Assembly (NCBI GenBank): GCA_022823045.1
Contig: JAJDXW010000117.1
Span: forward strand, 1-49,978
DNA from: Gammaproteobacteria bacterium
GTDB taxonomy: Bacteria; Pseudomonadota; Gammaproteobacteria; HK1
DNA: 49,978 bases
Direction of reading: 5' to 3'
Shown: positions 37,984-49,829 of the stretch, piece after piece
Numbering within the stretch: the stretch's first letter is position 1
How the letters are laid out: the number at the start of each line of letters is the position of its first letter
Notes under the pieces: model-generated
Databases searched by the model: none
Seen by the model: the letters and a program-made list of their open reading frames with translations, nothing else
Told to the model about the DNA's origin: nothing
Made by a program: the position numbers and the translations under genes

Positions 37984-38059
37984 GGGAGTCGCCTCTCGGG
38001 TGGCAATTCATTGTTTCACGACCGACCGATCGCCGCAATCGACTTCGGCCCGCTCCCTG

Positions 38060-38457
38060 GCCCGAAAATCTCACCAGCTTTCGTCGCGAGGGCGTGGAGA
38101 TGCCGATGTGACAAGGCGCACGGACCGAAAGAGCGCTTCGCGCTGCTGAAGGGCGAGCCGGAGACAGACGAAGCGCCGGTGGCGCTTCGTCCCGGCGAGC
38201 GGGCAATCCAAGGACAGATTGCCCGGCCTGCAAGCGAAGCAGGGACTGCGGAGCGCAGCAGGGACTGCGGAGCGCAGCAGGTAGCCGACACTAGCGCTAC
38301 GCGCTGTCAAAGCGGCTTGAGGGAGTACGCCTTGTCACAGCGAGCAGATCCGCGTCCGTAAGTCCGGAAACCTCGGAGAGGTTTCCAGACAAGTGAATCT
38401 CACGGAAAAATCTTGGATTTTTCCGTGTATGCAGAAAGCTGGTGAGGTTTTCGGGCC
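38060..38457. repeat. Foldback element copy B (398 bp, longest)
   Basis: Fills most of the 528-bp gap between rppH and adk. Terminal inverted repeats 38060-38082 and 38435-38457 differ at one position (inner part TCTCACCAGCTTT). Inner stem GTGACAAGGCG is at 38108-38118 and 38328-38338. Relative to copy A it is inverted and has a larger centre. That centre holds hairpins at 38168-38190 (10-bp stem, loop GGT) and 38201-38224 (8-bp stem), plus two 19-bp direct repeats at 38238-38275. The right arm carries two more hairpins near 38374 (stem GGAAACCTC, loop GGA) and at 38401-38427 (stem CACGGAAAAATC, loop TTG). Confidence 0.9.
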
Positions 38458-38511
38458 AGCCCCGCATGCCGCGCACCGCGCGTCCCCCCGGCGCGCTCCT
38501 TTCCCCCGGGC

Positions 38512-39663: not shown

Positions 39664-40443
39664 CTAGCTCCGTCGGGGGAGATATTTCAGCGGATTCAGC
39701 GGCTTTCCGTCTCGCCGGACCTCGAAGTGCAGCTTCACCCGCTCGGCGCCGGTGCTCCCCATCTCGGCAATCTTCTGACCCGCCCGAACCGTCTGTCCTT
39801 CCTTGACGAGCACCCGATCGTTGTGGGCGTAGGCGGTAAGGAGCCGCTCGCCGTGCTTGACGATGACGAGGCGCCCATAGCCGACGAGGCCGCTCCCGGA
39901 ATAGACCACCCGTCCGTCCCGCGCCGCCACCACCGGCTGCCCACGCTGCCCGGCAATGTCGATCCCTCCGCGGTCGCCCTTGCCGAAGCCCCGAATGAGC
40001 TGCCCCCGGGCGGGCCACGTCCAGCCCCCGGCCGGCACCGGGGCCGCGGCCGCGGGACGCTTCGCGCCGTCCCCGGCCCCGGCCCCTGCCTTCTTTCCCT
40101 GCGCCCGCCCGGTCGAACCCGAGGTCGGGGCACCGCGCAGCGCGAGCTTCTGCCCGGGATGGATGACGTAGGGAGAACGGATGCGGTTCCAGCGCGCAAT
40201 GGAACGGTAGTCGAGACCGTATCGCCACGCAATGGACGAAAGGTTCTCCCCCCGGCGCACCACGTGCACGGCGGGCCGCTTGCCGCTCGGCCGCTTCGCC
40301 GCCGCCCTCGGCTCGCGCACCTCGGGCGCGGAGGTACGGCCGCCCCACGGCCCCAAACCGCAGCCGCCGGCGACCAGCACCACCAGGGCGCCGGCGAGAA
40401 GACGGGTCAGAAGTCGGCGTCGAACCCGAGTTTCCCGATCCAC
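39664..40443 (-). CDS. nlpD: Murein hydrolase activator NlpD
   Basis: Outer-membrane lipoprotein that activates amidase AmiC at the septum. It has 259 residues. A signal peptide with lipobox (LVVLVAGGC) ends near residue 28. One LysM domain is at about 58-103 (HVVRRGENLSSIAWRYGLDY). The C-terminal LytM/M23 domain is degenerate as in NlpD (GGIDIA in place of the zinc-binding His motif; LHFEVRRDGKPLNPLKYLP). The GTG start lies 37 bp inside surE, as no other start precedes the signal. pcm, usually between surE and nlpD, is absent, and rpoS does not follow. Confidence 0.93.
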   Translation of the reverse strand: MDRETRVRRRLLTRLLAGALVVLVAGGCGLGPWGGRTSAPEVREPRAAAKRPSGKRPAVHVVRRGENLSSIAWRYGLDYRSIARWNRIRSPYVIHPGQKLALRGAPTSGSTGRAQGKKAGAGAGDGAKRPAAAAPVPAGGWTWPARGQLIRGFGKGDRGGIDIAGQRGQPVVAARDGRVVYSGSGLVGYGRLVIVKHGERLLTAYAHNDRVLVKEGQTVRAGQKIAEMGSTGAERVKLHFEVRRDGKPLNPLKYLPRRS

Positions 40444-41171
40444 GACGAGATCGCACCGAGGGAGCTGTGCCGGGTGAGGTCGGCATGCAGGGGCGTCACG
40501 GAAACGAAGCCCTCCTCCACCGCATGGAAGTCCGTGTCCGGAGCGTTGTCCCGGGCCGAGCCCGCTTCACCGAACCAGTAGATGGACTCGCCGGACGGAT
40601 CGCGGTCGCGGACCGCCGGACGGGAGCGGTGCCGGTGACCGAGCCGCGTCACCTTCACCCCTTCGATGCGGTCCAGGGGCAGGTCCGGGACGTTCACGTT
40701 GAGGACCGTTCCCGGCGGGATGGAGCCATGGGAGAGCGCCCCGAGGAGCCTTTCCACCACCGCGGCCGCGGTCTCGTAGCGGTGCGGATCACGCCCCACC
40801 AGGGAGACCGCGATTGCCGGGAGGCCGAGATGGCGGCCTTCGAGCGCCGCCGCCACCGTCCCCGAGTAGAGCACGTCGTCGCCGAGGTTCCCGCCCGCGT
40901 TGATCCCGGACACCACGAGGTCCGGCTCCGTGTCGAGCAGCCCGGTGAGCGCGAGGTGCACGCAGTCGGTCGGAGTCCCCTCGACCACGATGAATCCGTT
41001 CTCGCGCCGCTCCGCCCGGAGCGGGTTGCGCAGGGTGAGGGAGTTGCTCGCGCCGCTACGATCCCGGTCGGGGGCGGCCACCGTCACCTCCCACCGATTC
41101 GAGAGGGTCCGCCACAGGCACAGGAGCCCCGGCGCCCGGTAACCGTCGTCATTGCTGAGGAGGATGCGCAT
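40407..41171 (-). CDS. surE: 5'-nucleotidase SurE
   Basis: Metal-dependent nucleotide phosphatase of stationary-phase survival. It has 254 residues. Metal ligands are in LLSNDDGY (Asp pair, residues 8-9), RSGASNSLTL and SGINAGGNLGDDVLYSGTV. GLPAIAVSL and NVNVPDL follow as in the family. The 3' end overlaps nlpD by 37 bp. Confidence 0.97.
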   Translation of the reverse strand: MRILLSNDDGYRAPGLLCLWRTLSNRWEVTVAAPDRDRSGASNSLTLRNPLRAERRENGFIVVEGTPTDCVHLALTGLLDTEPDLVVSGINAGGNLGDDVLYSGTVAAALEGRHLGLPAIAVSLVGRDPHRYETAAAVVERLLGALSHGSIPPGTVLNVNVPDLPLDRIEGVKVTRLGHRHRSRPAVRDRDPSGESIYWFGEAGSARDNAPDTDFHAVEEGFVSVTPLHADLTRHSSLGAISSWIGKLGFDADF

Positions 41172-41807: not shown

Positions 41808-41884
41808 TTTGCCGACCTCCCTTGGGTATTCCGAACACGCGGCTCAGCTTTCGAGACGGCGCCTGGCCGACTCGCCACGCCGAC

Positions 41885-41971
41885 TCAGCCGATGGGAAAA
41901 ATGGCCGCGAGGATCAACGCGATCACGACGCCCGCGATGATGGTCCCCCAGATGCTGTCCAATGGGTTCAT
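41885..41971 (-). CDS. Small membrane peptide, 28 residues
   Basis: Short reading frame MNPLDSIWGTII... ending FPIG, with a single hydrophobic helix rich in Ile, Val, Ala and Leu (about residues 9-26). The ATG has an excellent ribosome site, AGGAGA about 8 nt upstream. It lies on the same strand directly upstream of the PuuD-like membrane gene, so the two may be translated from one mRNA and interact in the membrane. Family unknown. Confidence 0.7.
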   Translation of the reverse strand: MNPLDSIWGTIIAGVVIALILAAIFPIG

Positions 41972-42095
41972 GGACTCTCTCTCCTGCTGCCTGGTCCGGA
42001 GGCCCGTCCGCAAGGGCGGCCTCGCCCGCGGATCGTACCGGCAGCGGGCGGGAATGGCCAGTGCCTTGCTGTGCGTTGTGTGCCCGCGGGGAGCG

Positions 42096-42800
42096 CTACC
42101 CGTCCGCGCCGCTCCCGTCCGCCTGCCGCCAGACGCACGTGCCTCCCGCCGCGCGATCGAGCTGGTCGAGCCGCGCCTCGTGACGGGCGAGCTCCTCGGC
42201 AGACGCCCGCACCACCCGGAGCGCGGGCCCTGTCCCGCGCTGCACGTACCGCCTTCGCACCGCCGCGGGAGCGAGGTCCATGCGGGTCTGGCCGCCGGTC
42301 ATTGCGAGGTAGACCTCCGCGAGGAGCTCCGCGTCGAGGCGCGCGCCGTGCACGGTCCGGCGCGAGTGGTCCACCCCGTAGCGGGCGCAGAGCGCGTCGA
42401 GGTTGTTGCGCTGGCCGGGATGCCGGCGCCGCGCGAGCTCGAGGGTGTCCAGAACCGAGTGGCGCCCGCTCAGGGGGGGGCGCGAGCAGCGCACGAGCTC
42501 CGCGTCGAGAAAGGCAAGGTCGAAGGGGGCGTTGTGGATGATGAGCTCGGCCCCGTCGAGGAACGCGAGGAACTCGTCCGCGAGGTCCGCGAACCTCGGC
42601 TCGTTCATGAGGTCCGCGTGCGACATGCCGTGAACGCGCTCCGCCCCCGCCTCGATCTCGCGCTCGGGGTTGAAGTGGCGATGGAACGCCGCGCCGGTGA
42701 GCCGGCGGTCCACGAGCTCCAGCGCCGCCGCCTCGATCACGCGGTGGCCCTCCTCGGGTTCGAGACCCGTCGTCTCGGTGTCGAGGACGATCCGGCGCAT
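42096..42800 (-). CDS. dnaQ: DNA polymerase III epsilon subunit (proofreading exonuclease)
   Basis: 3'-5' exonuclease of the replicative polymerase. It has 234 residues. DEDDh motifs: VLDTETTGLEP (ExoI, residues 5-15), HNAPFDLAFLD (ExoII, about 93), and HGARLDAELLAEVYLAMTGG (ExoIII, about 145). The C-terminal segment for binding the alpha subunit is short. The start MRRIVLDTETTG has GGGAG 6 nt upstream. It is 21 bp downstream of rnhA, the conserved pairing. Confidence 0.96.
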   Translation of the reverse strand: MRRIVLDTETTGLEPEEGHRVIEAAALELVDRRLTGAAFHRHFNPEREIEAGAERVHGMSHADLMNEPRFADLADEFLAFLDGAELIIHNAPFDLAFLDAELVRCSRPPLSGRHSVLDTLELARRRHPGQRNNLDALCARYGVDHSRRTVHGARLDAELLAEVYLAMTGGQTRMDLAPAAVRRRYVQRGTGPALRVVRASAEELARHEARLDQLDRAAGGTCVWRQADGSGADG

Positions 42801-42821
42801 CGTGCTCCCCGCCTCCATCGT

Positions 42822-43310
42822 TCAGCCGGAGCTTCCGGCCCGCTCCGCGGCGCGTCCGTCGGTCGACGCCCCGCTTCCGACCGCCGCCGCCTCCGCGCGC
42901 GCGCGCCGGTCCACCCGCTCGTTCTCAGGATGCCCGCTGTGGCCCCGCGTCCAGACCCAGTCCACATCGTGCCCCGACGCCGCCTCGTCCAGCCGATGCC
43001 AGAGGTCGACGTTCTTGACCGGCTGCCCACCCGCCGTGCGCCAGCCCCGCCGCTTCCACCCCGCGATCCAGCGAGTGATCCCGTCACGCACGTAGGTCGA
43101 GTCGGTGACCAGCCGGACCCGGCACGGGCGGCGCAGCGCTTCGAGCCCGTGGATGGCCGCGAGCAGCTCCATCCGGTTGTTGGTGGTCCACGGTTCGCGG
43201 CCGCCGATCTCCCGTTCGCGGCCCCGAAAGAGCAGGAGCGCCGCCCAGCCCCCGGGGCCCGGATTGCCGCGGCTCGCCCCGTCGGTGTAGATCTCGACCG
43301 GCTCTCGCAT
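42822..43310 (-). CDS. rnhA: Ribonuclease HI
   Basis: Degrades RNA in RNA-DNA hybrids. It has 162 residues. The four acidic catalytic residues are in [15 protein letters not shown] (Asp10), [10 protein letters not shown] (Glu), [11 protein letters not shown] (Asp) and [11 protein letters not shown] (Asp). The C-terminal tail is Ala-rich. The ATG lies 11 bp after the methyltransferase stop, with no purine-rich ribosome site in between (CCTCCCTCC precedes it), suggesting translation coupled to the upstream gene. Confidence 0.96.
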
Positions 43311-43321
43311 GGAGGGAGGCG

Positions 43322-44128
43322 TCAGGCCGCATCCTCCGCGGGGTACCGTCCTCGCTCGGTCATCGCCGCCGGGCCGGCGAGCCCGGCCTCCCGGATCCGC
43401 TTCCGCCGCCGGCGCCAGACGGGCCGCAGGGGGGTCAGGGTGGCGGTCCGCTTGCGCGCGACGAGGAACCAGGTGCCGCAAAATCCCGGCCAGAACCGCG
43501 GACCGGCGGTCTCGAACACCTGGAGCTGCCGGAGGACCCGGTGGCTCGGAAGCGGCGGACGGAAGAAGCAGCCCTCGCTCGCCACCGTGTCGAAGCCGAG
43601 GACCGAGAGCCAGTCCCTGACTCGCCCGGCGGTATAGAAGCGCCCGTTCCACGGAGCACCGCGACGGTGGAGGAGGTTCCAGGCCCCCATCAGCCCGAGC
43701 GCGTTGTATCCGGCCACGACCAAGTGACCCTCGGGCACCAGAACCCGTTCGGCCTCTCGAAGAACCGCATGTGGATCTTTTTGAAATTCAATTATATGTG
43801 GAAGAATTACAATGTCGATACTATCCGAGGCGACAGGCATCGCCCCGGGGTTGCCCTGGACCGCGGAACAGCGGGCGGCGGGGAGGACGGCCTCCGGCTC
43901 GGGTCCCCGCGCGGGTGCGCCCGGGACCTTGAGCCACGTACAATGCTGAACGCGAACGGCACCGAGCACGGGCAGGTAGTCGCGCGAACCGACAATCAGC
44001 AGGTGATATCCAAACTTGTTGGCAATCAAGGGGATAAGACATCGGTTCTCGGTGTCGAGGACGAGGCTCCCCGGCACGCGCCGGTGCCAGTCGGCTAGGC
44101 CGTTGCCGCCGTTCGGAAGATGCTGCAC
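43322..44128 (-). CDS. SAM-dependent methyltransferase (class I, Methyltransf_11 type)
   Basis: It has 268 residues. The methyltransferase core is recognisable by [17 protein letters not shown] and [20 protein letters not shown]; the SAM-binding Gly motif is weak (LLIVGSRDY). Relatives lie between gloB and rnhA in many proteobacteria; here gloB is missing and the gene is divergent from mltD. A GTG start is used, with a G-rich run 5 nt upstream. A remarkably AT-rich patch (about 43770-43825) interrupts an otherwise GC-rich gene. Substrate unknown. Confidence 0.88.
43791..43796 (-). promoter_or_regulatory. Candidate -10 (TATAAT) inside the methyltransferase gene
   Basis: A perfect TATAAT on the minus strand within an AT-rich patch of about 55 bp, facing rnhA and dnaQ. 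At 17 bp upstream is ATCGAC, a poor -35. Such AT-richness is rare in this window, so an internal promoter for rnhA-dnaQ is possible, but unproven. Confidence 0.3.
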
Positions 44129-44319: not shown

Positions 44320-45768
44320 ATGGACCCAGCCCGCATCATGTGCGCCGCGCTCGTCGTCATGCTGTCGGCCACGTCGTGCATCAATTGGCAGACCGCGGAT
44401 CGCCGCGCCCATCCGAGGGCCATCCCCGAACCTCCTTCCGGCGGGGGCTCCGCGCCCGGAGACTCGATTGCGGGGCGGGTTTCCGGCGAAGCGCCCGGCC
44501 AGCCTGCCTCGGTTGCGTTGCTGCGGGAGCTGCGGACGGACGGAACCCTGGCGGACCGCCGCCTCCGGAATCCCTACGGCCCGGGTGAGGACCGCGACAC
44601 GTGGGAGCGCATCCGTCGCCTGATGACGGTGGTGCCGGTGCAGTCGCACGTCAGCTCCCTTCGCGAGTTCCGGCGCAAGCTCCGTCGGTACCACGGCAAC
44701 CAACGGTTCTTCGACACCATCGGGAGCAACGCGAGCCCCTGGCTCTATCACGTGACGCGGCAGCTCGCGGCCCGGGGGCTCCCGGGCGAGATCGCCCTGC
44801 TCCCGGCGGTGGAGAGCGGCTACGACGCGAGGGCCGTTTCGTCCCGGAACGCGGCCGGTCTGTGGCAAATCCTTCCCGGCACCGCGCGCGATCTGAAGCT
44901 CTCGCGTTCCTGGTGGTACGACGCACGACATGACGCCCCCGCCGCGACGGAGGCCGCGCTCGACTACCTCACTTTTCTCCACGACGAGTTCGACGGCGAC
45001 TGGATGCTCGCCGTCGCCGCCTACAATTGCGGCCCGGGCAATGTACGACGGGCTATCCGGCGAGCCGGACTGCGGATCGAGACGGCGCACTACGCCGCCA
45101 TCGAACGCTATCTTCCGAGGGAGACGCGCAGCCACATGGCGCGCTGGCTGGTCCTCTCCGAGATCGTCGCAATGCCGCGTCTGCACAACGTGCGGATGAA
45201 GACGATCCCCTGGCGCCCGTACTTCACCGAGGTTGCGGCGCCGTCGCAGGTCAACCTGGCGAGCGCGGCCCGGAGCGCGGGATTGCCCGCGGCGGAACTC
45301 GCGGTCCTCAACCTCGGATTCCGGCGCGGCATGACGGCGCCGAACGGACCGCATCGCGTGCTGGTTCGCGCCGAGCACGCCGACCGTCTCGGCCGGGAGC
45401 TGTCGCAGATCCGCCCGGTGCGGCTGCAGGAGCGCCGGCGCTACCGGGTCCGTGAAGGCGACACCCTCGGCGCGATCGCTCAGGCCCACGGGATCTCCGT
45501 GAAGACCCTGATGGCGGCCAACCGGCTGGACTCGCATCTCATTCACGCCGGCCGGGACCTGATGGTCCCCGTGTCCGGCCGTGCATCCTCGAAGCCGGCG
45601 GCGGCGACGGAGCGCGGCGTGCATGTCGTGAGTGCCGGGGAGAGTCTCTGGATCATCGCCCGCCGGTACCGGACCACCGTCAGCTCGCTTCGCGACTGGA
45701 ACCACCTCGCTCCGGGCTCGAACGTCCTTCATCCGGGTCAACAACTCCGAGTACGGGGTGAAGGTTAG
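44320..45768 (+). CDS. mltD: Membrane-bound lytic murein transglycosylase D
   Basis: Lipoprotein that cleaves peptidoglycan glycan strands. It has 482 residues. A signal peptide with a lipobox-like SATSC ends near residue 20. The SLT catalytic domain has Glu in LLPAVESGYDARAVS, then AAGLWQILPGTARDL and AYNCGPGNVRRAIR. Two C-terminal LysM domains follow (YRVREGDTLGAIAQAHGISV and HVVSAGESLWIIARRYRTTV), fewer than some relatives. The start was set by the promoter just upstream; ATG 44338 is an alternative. A foldback element starts at the stop codon. Confidence 0.94.
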   Translation: MDPARIMCAALVVMLSATSCINWQTADRRAHPRAIPEPPSGGGSAPGDSIAGRVSGEAPGQPASVALLRELRTDGTLADRRLRNPYGPGEDRDTWERIRRLMTVVPVQSHVSSLREFRRKLRRYHGNQRFFDTIGSNASPWLYHVTRQLAARGLPGEIALLPAVESGYDARAVSSRNAAGLWQILPGTARDLKLSRSWWYDARHDAPAATEAALDYLTFLHDEFDGDWMLAVAAYNCGPGNVRRAIRRAGLRIETAHYAAIERYLPRETRSHMARWLVLSEIVAMPRLHNVRMKTIPWRPYFTEVAAPSQVNLASAARSAGLPAAELAVLNLGFRRGMTAPNGPHRVLVRAEHADRLGRELSQIRPVRLQERRRYRVREGDTLGAIAQAHGISVKTLMAANRLDSHLIHAGRDLMVPVSGRASSKPAAATERGVHVVSAGESLWIIARRYRTTVSSLRDWNHLAPGSNVLHPGQQLRVRGEG

Positions 45769-46038
45769 CCGCGAGATTTCACCCATGTTCTGCTGCGGAC
45801 GCCAATTCTCTTGGCGGAGCGAGCCGTACCCCCTCAAGTCGCTTCGTCAGCGCGCAAGCGCTAGTGTCAACTGCGCCTTCAGCAGCGCGCATGCGCTCTT
45901 TCGGTCCGTGCGGCCCGCTACCGCGGCATCTTGGCGCCCAGACCCGAAAAACTCGGCGAGTTTTTCGGGTGAGCGACCATCTCGAAGAATTCGCAGAATT
46001 CTTCGAGTATGCGACGAACATCGGTGAAATCTCGCGGC
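45768..46038. repeat. Foldback element copy C (271 bp)
   Basis: Occupies almost the whole mltD-fabI gap. Terminal inverted repeats 45768-45790 and 46016-46038 differ at one position (inner part GCGAGATTTCACC). The inner stem is GCGGAGCGAGCCG (45814-45826) against CGGCCCGCTACCGC (45911-45924). The core CTTCAGCAGCGCG and TCGGTCCGTGCG is shared with A and B. The right arm has two perfect hairpins: 45942-45970 (13-bp stem ACCCGAAAAACTC, loop GGC) and 45981-46007 (12-bp stem CTCGAAGAATTC, loop GCA). Orientation is as in copy A. Confidence 0.9.
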
Positions 46039-46050
46039 TCGCCGCACGCC

Positions 46051-49680: not shown

Positions 49681-49829
49681 GCGCGCTGTCGACGCGGCTT
49701 GAACCGGATTACGCCGTGTCGCAGCGAGCAGATTGGCGTCCGCGAGTCTCGAAACCTCGGAAAGGTCTCCGGACAAGTGAATCTCACGGAGAAATCTTGA
49801 ATTTTCCGTGCATGCAGGAAGTTGGTGTG
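49681..49829. repeat. Foldback element relic D (right half)
   Basis: In the 407-bp gap before the edge transposase. Matches the right half of copy B in the same orientation: GCGGCTTGA, ACGCCGTGTCGCAGCGAGCA, the two arm hairpins (GAAACCTCGGAAAGG and the 49786-49810 hairpin), GACAAGTGAATCTCACGGA and the start of the end repeat GGAAGTTGGTG. Similarity stops at about 49829; the left half is not recognisable. The rest of the gap 49497-49903 shows no gene. Confidence 0.75.

Follow-up and report, generated by a model that had tools for sequence, protein, structure and literature searches.

CydX, KdpF and AcrZ are single helices of a few tens of residues that are bound to a larger membrane protein, and we know of no case in which the helix of a subunit of this type has been relocated to a C-terminus. 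The closest parallel to the gene pair analysed here is subunit IIa (CbaD) of the B-type (ba3) cytochrome oxidases. According to the available part of one report (PMC3128077), CbaD is a tiny single-helix peptide (41 residues in Aquifex) that is often left unannotated, is encoded directly upstream of its partner gene and takes the place of a helix built into subunit II of other oxidases; the same part states, with data not shown, that IIa and the fused segment have no sequence similarity.

The window analysed here, a stretch of 49,978 nucleotides taken as a whole, carries a hydrophobic mini-ORF followed by the gene of a four-helix protein of the Urate_ox_N family, hereafter the core (Table 1). 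An earlier note on this DNA had pointed to a small hydrophobic frame with a good ribosome site, paired with a PuuD-like membrane protein and without purine-catabolic neighbours, and all three observations held. The mini-ORF at 41971..41885 is the only ORF in the whole window, both strands included, that passes a filter requiring an ATG or GTG start, a Shine-Dalgarno motif, a length of 22-50 aa and a strong hydrophobic stretch. The core matches Pfam PF06181 (Urate_ox_N, DUF989) with 64.9 bits against a cut-off of 26.9, and the pair is flanked by dnaQ, an ORF with an RNase H domain and surE, with no purine-catabolic gene beside the core. As with CbaD, the peptide corresponds to a helix found fused in relatives, and it shares with CydX, KdpF and AcrZ the pairing of a single small helix with a larger membrane protein. 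Unlike IIa and its fused counterpart, however, the separate, N-terminally fused and C-terminal helices of the peptide family are recognisably homologous, and the neighbouring gene encodes a Urate_ox_N protein instead of oxidase subunit II. No CbaD family model was among the Pfam and NCBIfam matches of 24 peptides at E≤5, nor were families of the CydX, KdpF or AcrZ type among the matches of these peptides.

Table 1. Coordinates of the peptide gene, the core gene and their neighbours in the window.
Feature	Coordinates	Strand	Remarks
ORF with RNase H domain	43652..42822	-	upstream neighbour
dnaQ	42818..42096	-	upstream neighbour
Shine-Dalgarno AGGAG of the peptide	41981..41985	-	CTCCT on the forward strand; 9 nt before the ATG
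Peptide mini-ORF MNPLDSIWGTIIAGVVIALILAAIFPIG	41971..41885	-	28 aa, single helix, ATG start, stop included in coordinates
Gap from peptide stop to core start	41808..41884	-	77 nt; GGGAGG before the GTG of the core
Core, Urate_ox_N-family four-helix protein, 176 aa	41807..41277	-	GTG start; 77 nt past the peptide stop
surE	41171..40407	-	downstream neighbour

We propose that the mini-ORF very probably encodes a detached fifth transmembrane helix, so that an inner-membrane protein of five helices is here split and has the peptide as a structural subunit. The 28-residue peptide, once translated, would insert a single time, with its N-terminus inside and its C-terminus outside, and would pack against the four-helix core encoded just downstream; together they would restore in trans a module that relatives make as a single chain. 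In most of the relatives examined the equivalent helix is joined in frame ahead of core helix 1, and in one clade it is found at the C-terminus after one extra helix, which, from its predicted topology, would return the chain to the cytoplasmic side and let the relocated helix keep its orientation. If so, a micro-gene found repeatedly in Gammaproteobacteria would have a definite role, and anyone who expressed or deleted only the core gene, in an organism whose peptide is separate, would be studying an incomplete protein; the three natural connections of one helix would also lend themselves directly to testing how well membrane proteins withstand being split and rewired.

Of the 71 loci where the peptide is separate, one has too little upstream sequence; at the other 70 the mini-ORF filter, applied to 270 nt around the core starts, passed 62, none of the 70 regions read on the reverse strand and none of 3500 dinucleotide shuffles of the upstream regions. 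The peptides follow the consensus MNPLDSIxGTIIxGxVLAxIL, with MK replacing M in some. At the 64 separate loci measured, the peptide has 25-36 residues in 60 and 46-47 in four, three different stops are in use, and an SD-like motif (broad motif list) precedes 64/64 peptides and 62/64 cores; the relative frames of peptide and core are distributed 26/18/20 and the gaps span 11-102 nt. Because frames, stops and gaps vary freely over these loci, peptide and core are not joined by recoding, and a programmed frameshift or stop readthrough from the peptide into the core was rejected. Coding selection on the peptide is evident from substitutions across the set, with pN/pS of 0.22-0.43 and pS above pN in every divergence class (from 0.29 vs 0.06 up to 0.76 vs 0.32), while in the other two frames pS and pN are near-equal (0.38 and 0.33) or reversed (0.16 and 0.40); variability by codon position is 0.33/0.11/0.51. 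The changes relative to the two congeners alone (2 synonymous and 4 nonsynonymous in one, 4 and 3 in the other) are uninformative and, taken by themselves, do not amount to purifying selection. A terminator-like stem inside the peptide gene (41922-41905) is at chance level, one being found against a shuffle mean of 0.6.

A search at E≤0.001 found the core in 29 of 55 relatives, in one of them (G042) only through a weak distant match, and scans at E≤1e-15 found it in 123 of the 369 class genomes and in 87 of the 398 in the phylum sample; 80 named loci were kept from the at least 587 matches listed in the contig scan. Conservation in close relatives, which the earlier note had named as the check to be made, was found: both congeners and nine other family members (core at least 74% identical) carry the peptide, and L027 and L028, members of the family whose cores are more remote (48% identity), have the C-terminal form instead of a separate peptide. 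Among the first 29 loci the peptide is separate and upstream in 18 and fused in frame in four, the other seven being a locus with a different N-terminal helix (L023), the C-terminal forms L024, L025, L027 and L028, the interrupted L026 and the distant L029.

A larger set of 209 distinct core loci was classed by the peptide HMM and by eye, with PuuD loci set aside and entries identical in both core and upstream stretch collapsed, near-identical loci remaining. In this set the helix is separate and upstream at 70 loci, fused in frame at the N-terminus at 117 (103 close and 14 divergent) and C-terminal at 17, including assignments made by hand for the divergent separate peptides of L132, L145 and L223-L226 and for the C-terminal form of L222. 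The five other loci comprise one cut by a contig end (L204), the interrupted L026, two 81-aa fragments (L227 and L228) and L206, an intact core with no helix found in the surroundings of its locus. The core of L026, of the C-terminal form and from a 1.5-Mb genome (G019), is stopped by an in-frame TGA. At 49 further phylum-sample loci (L233-L281), which were examined out of a longer list, the helix is N-terminal in 48 (five close and 43 divergent, seven of the latter assigned by eye on a split alignment) and separate in L245. In an alignment of 30 fused proteins drawn from 52, the helix positions N2, P3, L4 and G14 do not vary. Peptide and core also occur together: in 36 genomes picked in advance, a search with the peptide profile (E<0.001) matched 19 of the 21 with a core, always at the core locus, and none of the 15 without one (best 0.044). 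Six of the 21 core genomes had supplied rows to the profile, and the two that it missed carry divergent helices.

The 16 C-terminal forms that were aligned and scored, a set without L222, have 59-75 extra C-terminal residues, comprising one more helix and then mostly GP(L/M)xS(V/I)xGVI, and no N-terminal or upstream helix was found for them. When the peptide profile was slid along these proteins, the C-terminal helix scored 14.5 and was the best of 183 windows (5.6 for the second; mean -10.6, sd 4.7), a score reached by none of 2000 column shuffles, and hhalign of the peptide with the C-terminal helix gave a probability of 91% (P 1.1e-6). By these profile comparisons the C-terminal helix is homologous to the peptide. 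Recognisable homology of one helix across three connections, the C-terminal one included, appears to be new as far as we have searched, and no description of the peptide was found in open-access papers. The mean K+R content of the loops is 3.85 / 0.48 / 6.6 in the separate forms, with the same pattern in the other forms; the loop charges place the helix 1-2 and helix 3-4 loops inside in all forms and predict that helix 1 runs out-to-in, with which the predicted topology of PuuD given in the accessible part of a previous study (PMC4562309) agrees.

A quick tree of 215 rows was built after collapsing rows that shared a label and at least 90% identity and omitting L204, L222, L026, L227 and L228. 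It holds at least 12 state changes among the helix connections, L132, L145, L223-L226 and L245 being labelled 'none' and not counted in these changes, and the C-terminal forms make up one clade with a support of 99. PuuD falls on one side of one branch, and support is low (23-77) for several deep branches close to the root, so that the direction, fission or fusion, is left undecided.

These distributions bear on what kind of product the mini-ORF encodes. A separate regulator or assembly factor, which would bind the core in the manner of AcrZ while staying outside its structure, agrees with the 70 of 209 loci at which the small ORF stands apart and has a ribosome site to itself, but the helix lies covalently in the protein chain at 117 (N-terminus) and 17 (C-terminus), and in the 30 fused proteins its N, P, L and G vary no more than residues of the core, which makes this reading improbable. 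Of the 'subunit or regulator' suggested in the earlier note it is thus the subunit that is far better supported, since most of the relatives examined have the helix within the chain of the protein. We give still less weight to a leader peptide or translational coupler, whose act of translation would matter instead of its product: although the small ORF lies 11-102 nt upstream of the core, and at L223 and L225 its start overlaps the pqqE stop as ATGA, the peptide itself is conserved with the low pN/pS given above, the same sequence also occurs fused and C-terminal, and both the gap and the frame change freely between loci.

A type I toxin-like hydrophobic peptide comes to mind since eight of the 24 peptides weakly match the NCBIfam Fst toxin model at E≤5 (best E 0.0022); the peptide of the window has no Fst match at this threshold, however, the peptide profile is tied to one membrane gene and natural fusions to that gene exist, and we regard a toxin as hardly credible. 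The same holds for a chance ORF, as short hydrophobic ORFs can appear randomly but none of the 3500 shuffles and only one ORF of the window pass the filter, and the peptide is conserved over the class.

The core had been taken in the earlier note for a stand-alone part of PuuD, a view that had to be given up. Core and part of the PuuD membrane domain are homologous (hhalign 99.3%), and the helix-1 His, W and G and helix-4 N, P and M columns are common to the core and the five PuuD proteins compared; the helix-1 His is invariant in 253/253 cores and 5/5 PuuD, and a column at the end of helix 4 is His in 203/213. PuuD, however, has an eight-helix membrane domain, with which the core aligns in two separate blocks that leave about 75 additional columns in PuuD, and a C-terminal cytochrome c, whereas the core has fewer helices, an extra one supplied by the peptide, and no such domain (its 176 residues in the window contain no cysteine and hence no CxxCH). 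Purine-catabolic neighbours, as expected of PuuD, are missing too: the core has the flanking genes of Table 1 here and argD, argF and Grx4 recurrently elsewhere. The peptide was rejected as a piece of PuuD, no PuuD helix matching it (hhalign probability 0.3%), and a full PuuD with the cytochrome c motif HCASCH is encoded elsewhere in the genome of the window (L229:3968-5161). Judged by its residues and neighbours, the core is not a stand-alone piece of PuuD and forms a family apart, with nearly invariant residues peculiar to it and different gene contexts; where four-helix proteins bear the name 'urate hydroxylase PuuD', they probably do not oxidise urate. By eye, the full PuuD of L229 adjoins guanine-deaminase-like and nucleoside ABC-permease-like ORFs.

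An AlphaFold2 model of the fused protein of L070 (pLDDT 89.5, pTM 0.82; first 30 residues 84-91) has five long helices and one short one. Foldseek gave no match to it at E≤0.001, and no solved relative was found when profiles of the fused protein and of the peptide were searched against PDB sequences. VIA lists bundles of many kinds for the model: its four core helices score Z about 12 with cytochrome b6, a value that designed bundles also reach, and STEAP1 scores Z 10.2, covering 12-194. In view of the invariant helix-1 His, the frequent His at the end of helix 4 and the possible likeness of the four-helix bundle to cytochrome b6, our best guess, still less likely than not, is that the core complex is a redox or cofactor-binding membrane protein and not a urate oxidase. 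Two relations to HemJ (UPF0093) were tried and rejected: recognisable homology, given no Pfam match at E≤1 and hhalign probabilities of 5% and 2% with two HemJ sequences, and replacement of the protoporphyrinogen oxidase HemJ by the core, given HemJ in 19/21 core-positive and 14/15 core-negative genomes. TIGR00562 was over its cut-off in one of the 36 genomes, and G000, G182 and G039 are the three of the 36 with no HemJ (PF03653) match.

Neighbours were counted by direct blastp over the 209 loci, the surE and dnaQ queries being the sequences of the window, which may miss distant homologues. An argD homologue is present at 117 loci, 113 times downstream on the same strand and in 105 of these within 500 nt, argF at 84 and both together at 79; a Grx4 glutaredoxin occurs at 56, in 53 of them upstream and divergent, and surE and dnaQ at 18 and 19. 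One representative each of argD, argF and Grx4 was confirmed by NCBIfam. In the window and the family members L002-L012, argD is found at four loci and surE downstream at seven.

A paralogue at L223-L226 lies in the order pqqE-[peptide]-core-serC-pyrD and has its own peptide at 4/4 loci, two of them with GTG or TTG starts; PqqE was confirmed on L224 only, serC and pyrD were assigned by eye, and pqqE and serC of L226 are masked by antisense ORFs. At L223 and L225 (core at about 4000) the ATGA overlap with the pqqE stop suggests translational coupling with pqqE, and L226 shows GTGA at this place. The gene order of L223-L225 and, where resolved, L226 is that of the 'puuD' of the pqqAED-puuD-serC-pyrD clusters (Hyphomicrobium Hden_0550). 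This cluster is reported for denitrifiers in the accessible part of a recent paper (PMC12423496), and no mention of a mini-ORF before 'puuD' was found in that part. The paralogue also matched three plasmid records that name the protein urate hydroxylase PuuD. An Acidibrevibacterium plasmid carries a 34-aa peptide, unannotated in the PLSDB table, between pqqE and the gene so called, and no peptide is present in the 71-nt gap of the Methylovirgula plasmid copy; overall, a peptide of 30-34 aa precedes the paralogue core at L223-L226 and on plasmid L283, and none precedes it on plasmid L282. Given that the intact core of L206 and the Methylovirgula copy have no helix nearby, the peptide may not always be needed and is perhaps dispensable at times.

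Rather doubtful, in our estimate, is the wide reading in which one helix of an uncharacterised membrane redox protein has three natural connections (a trans micro-gene mostly of 25-36 aa, cis N-terminal, and cis C-terminal behind an orientation-restoring helix) with at least 12 switches, and the protein would serve a membrane step, so far undescribed, that belongs with arginine synthesis (argD, argF) or, for the paralogue, with pqqE-serC-pyrD. In both contexts the four-helix gene precedes the gene of a PLP aminotransferase, argD (113/209) or serC (paralogue), which may be coincidence.

Elsewhere in the window, at 38057-38459 and 45767-46039, stretches of about 403 and 273 nt are bounded by inverted repeats of 24-26 nt that are 96% complementary, and a 100-nt direct repeat (86%) links 38322-38421 with 49706-49805. 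These dispersed repeat elements are MITE-like, and similar sequence seems, by eye, to lie near L229:7967-8335.
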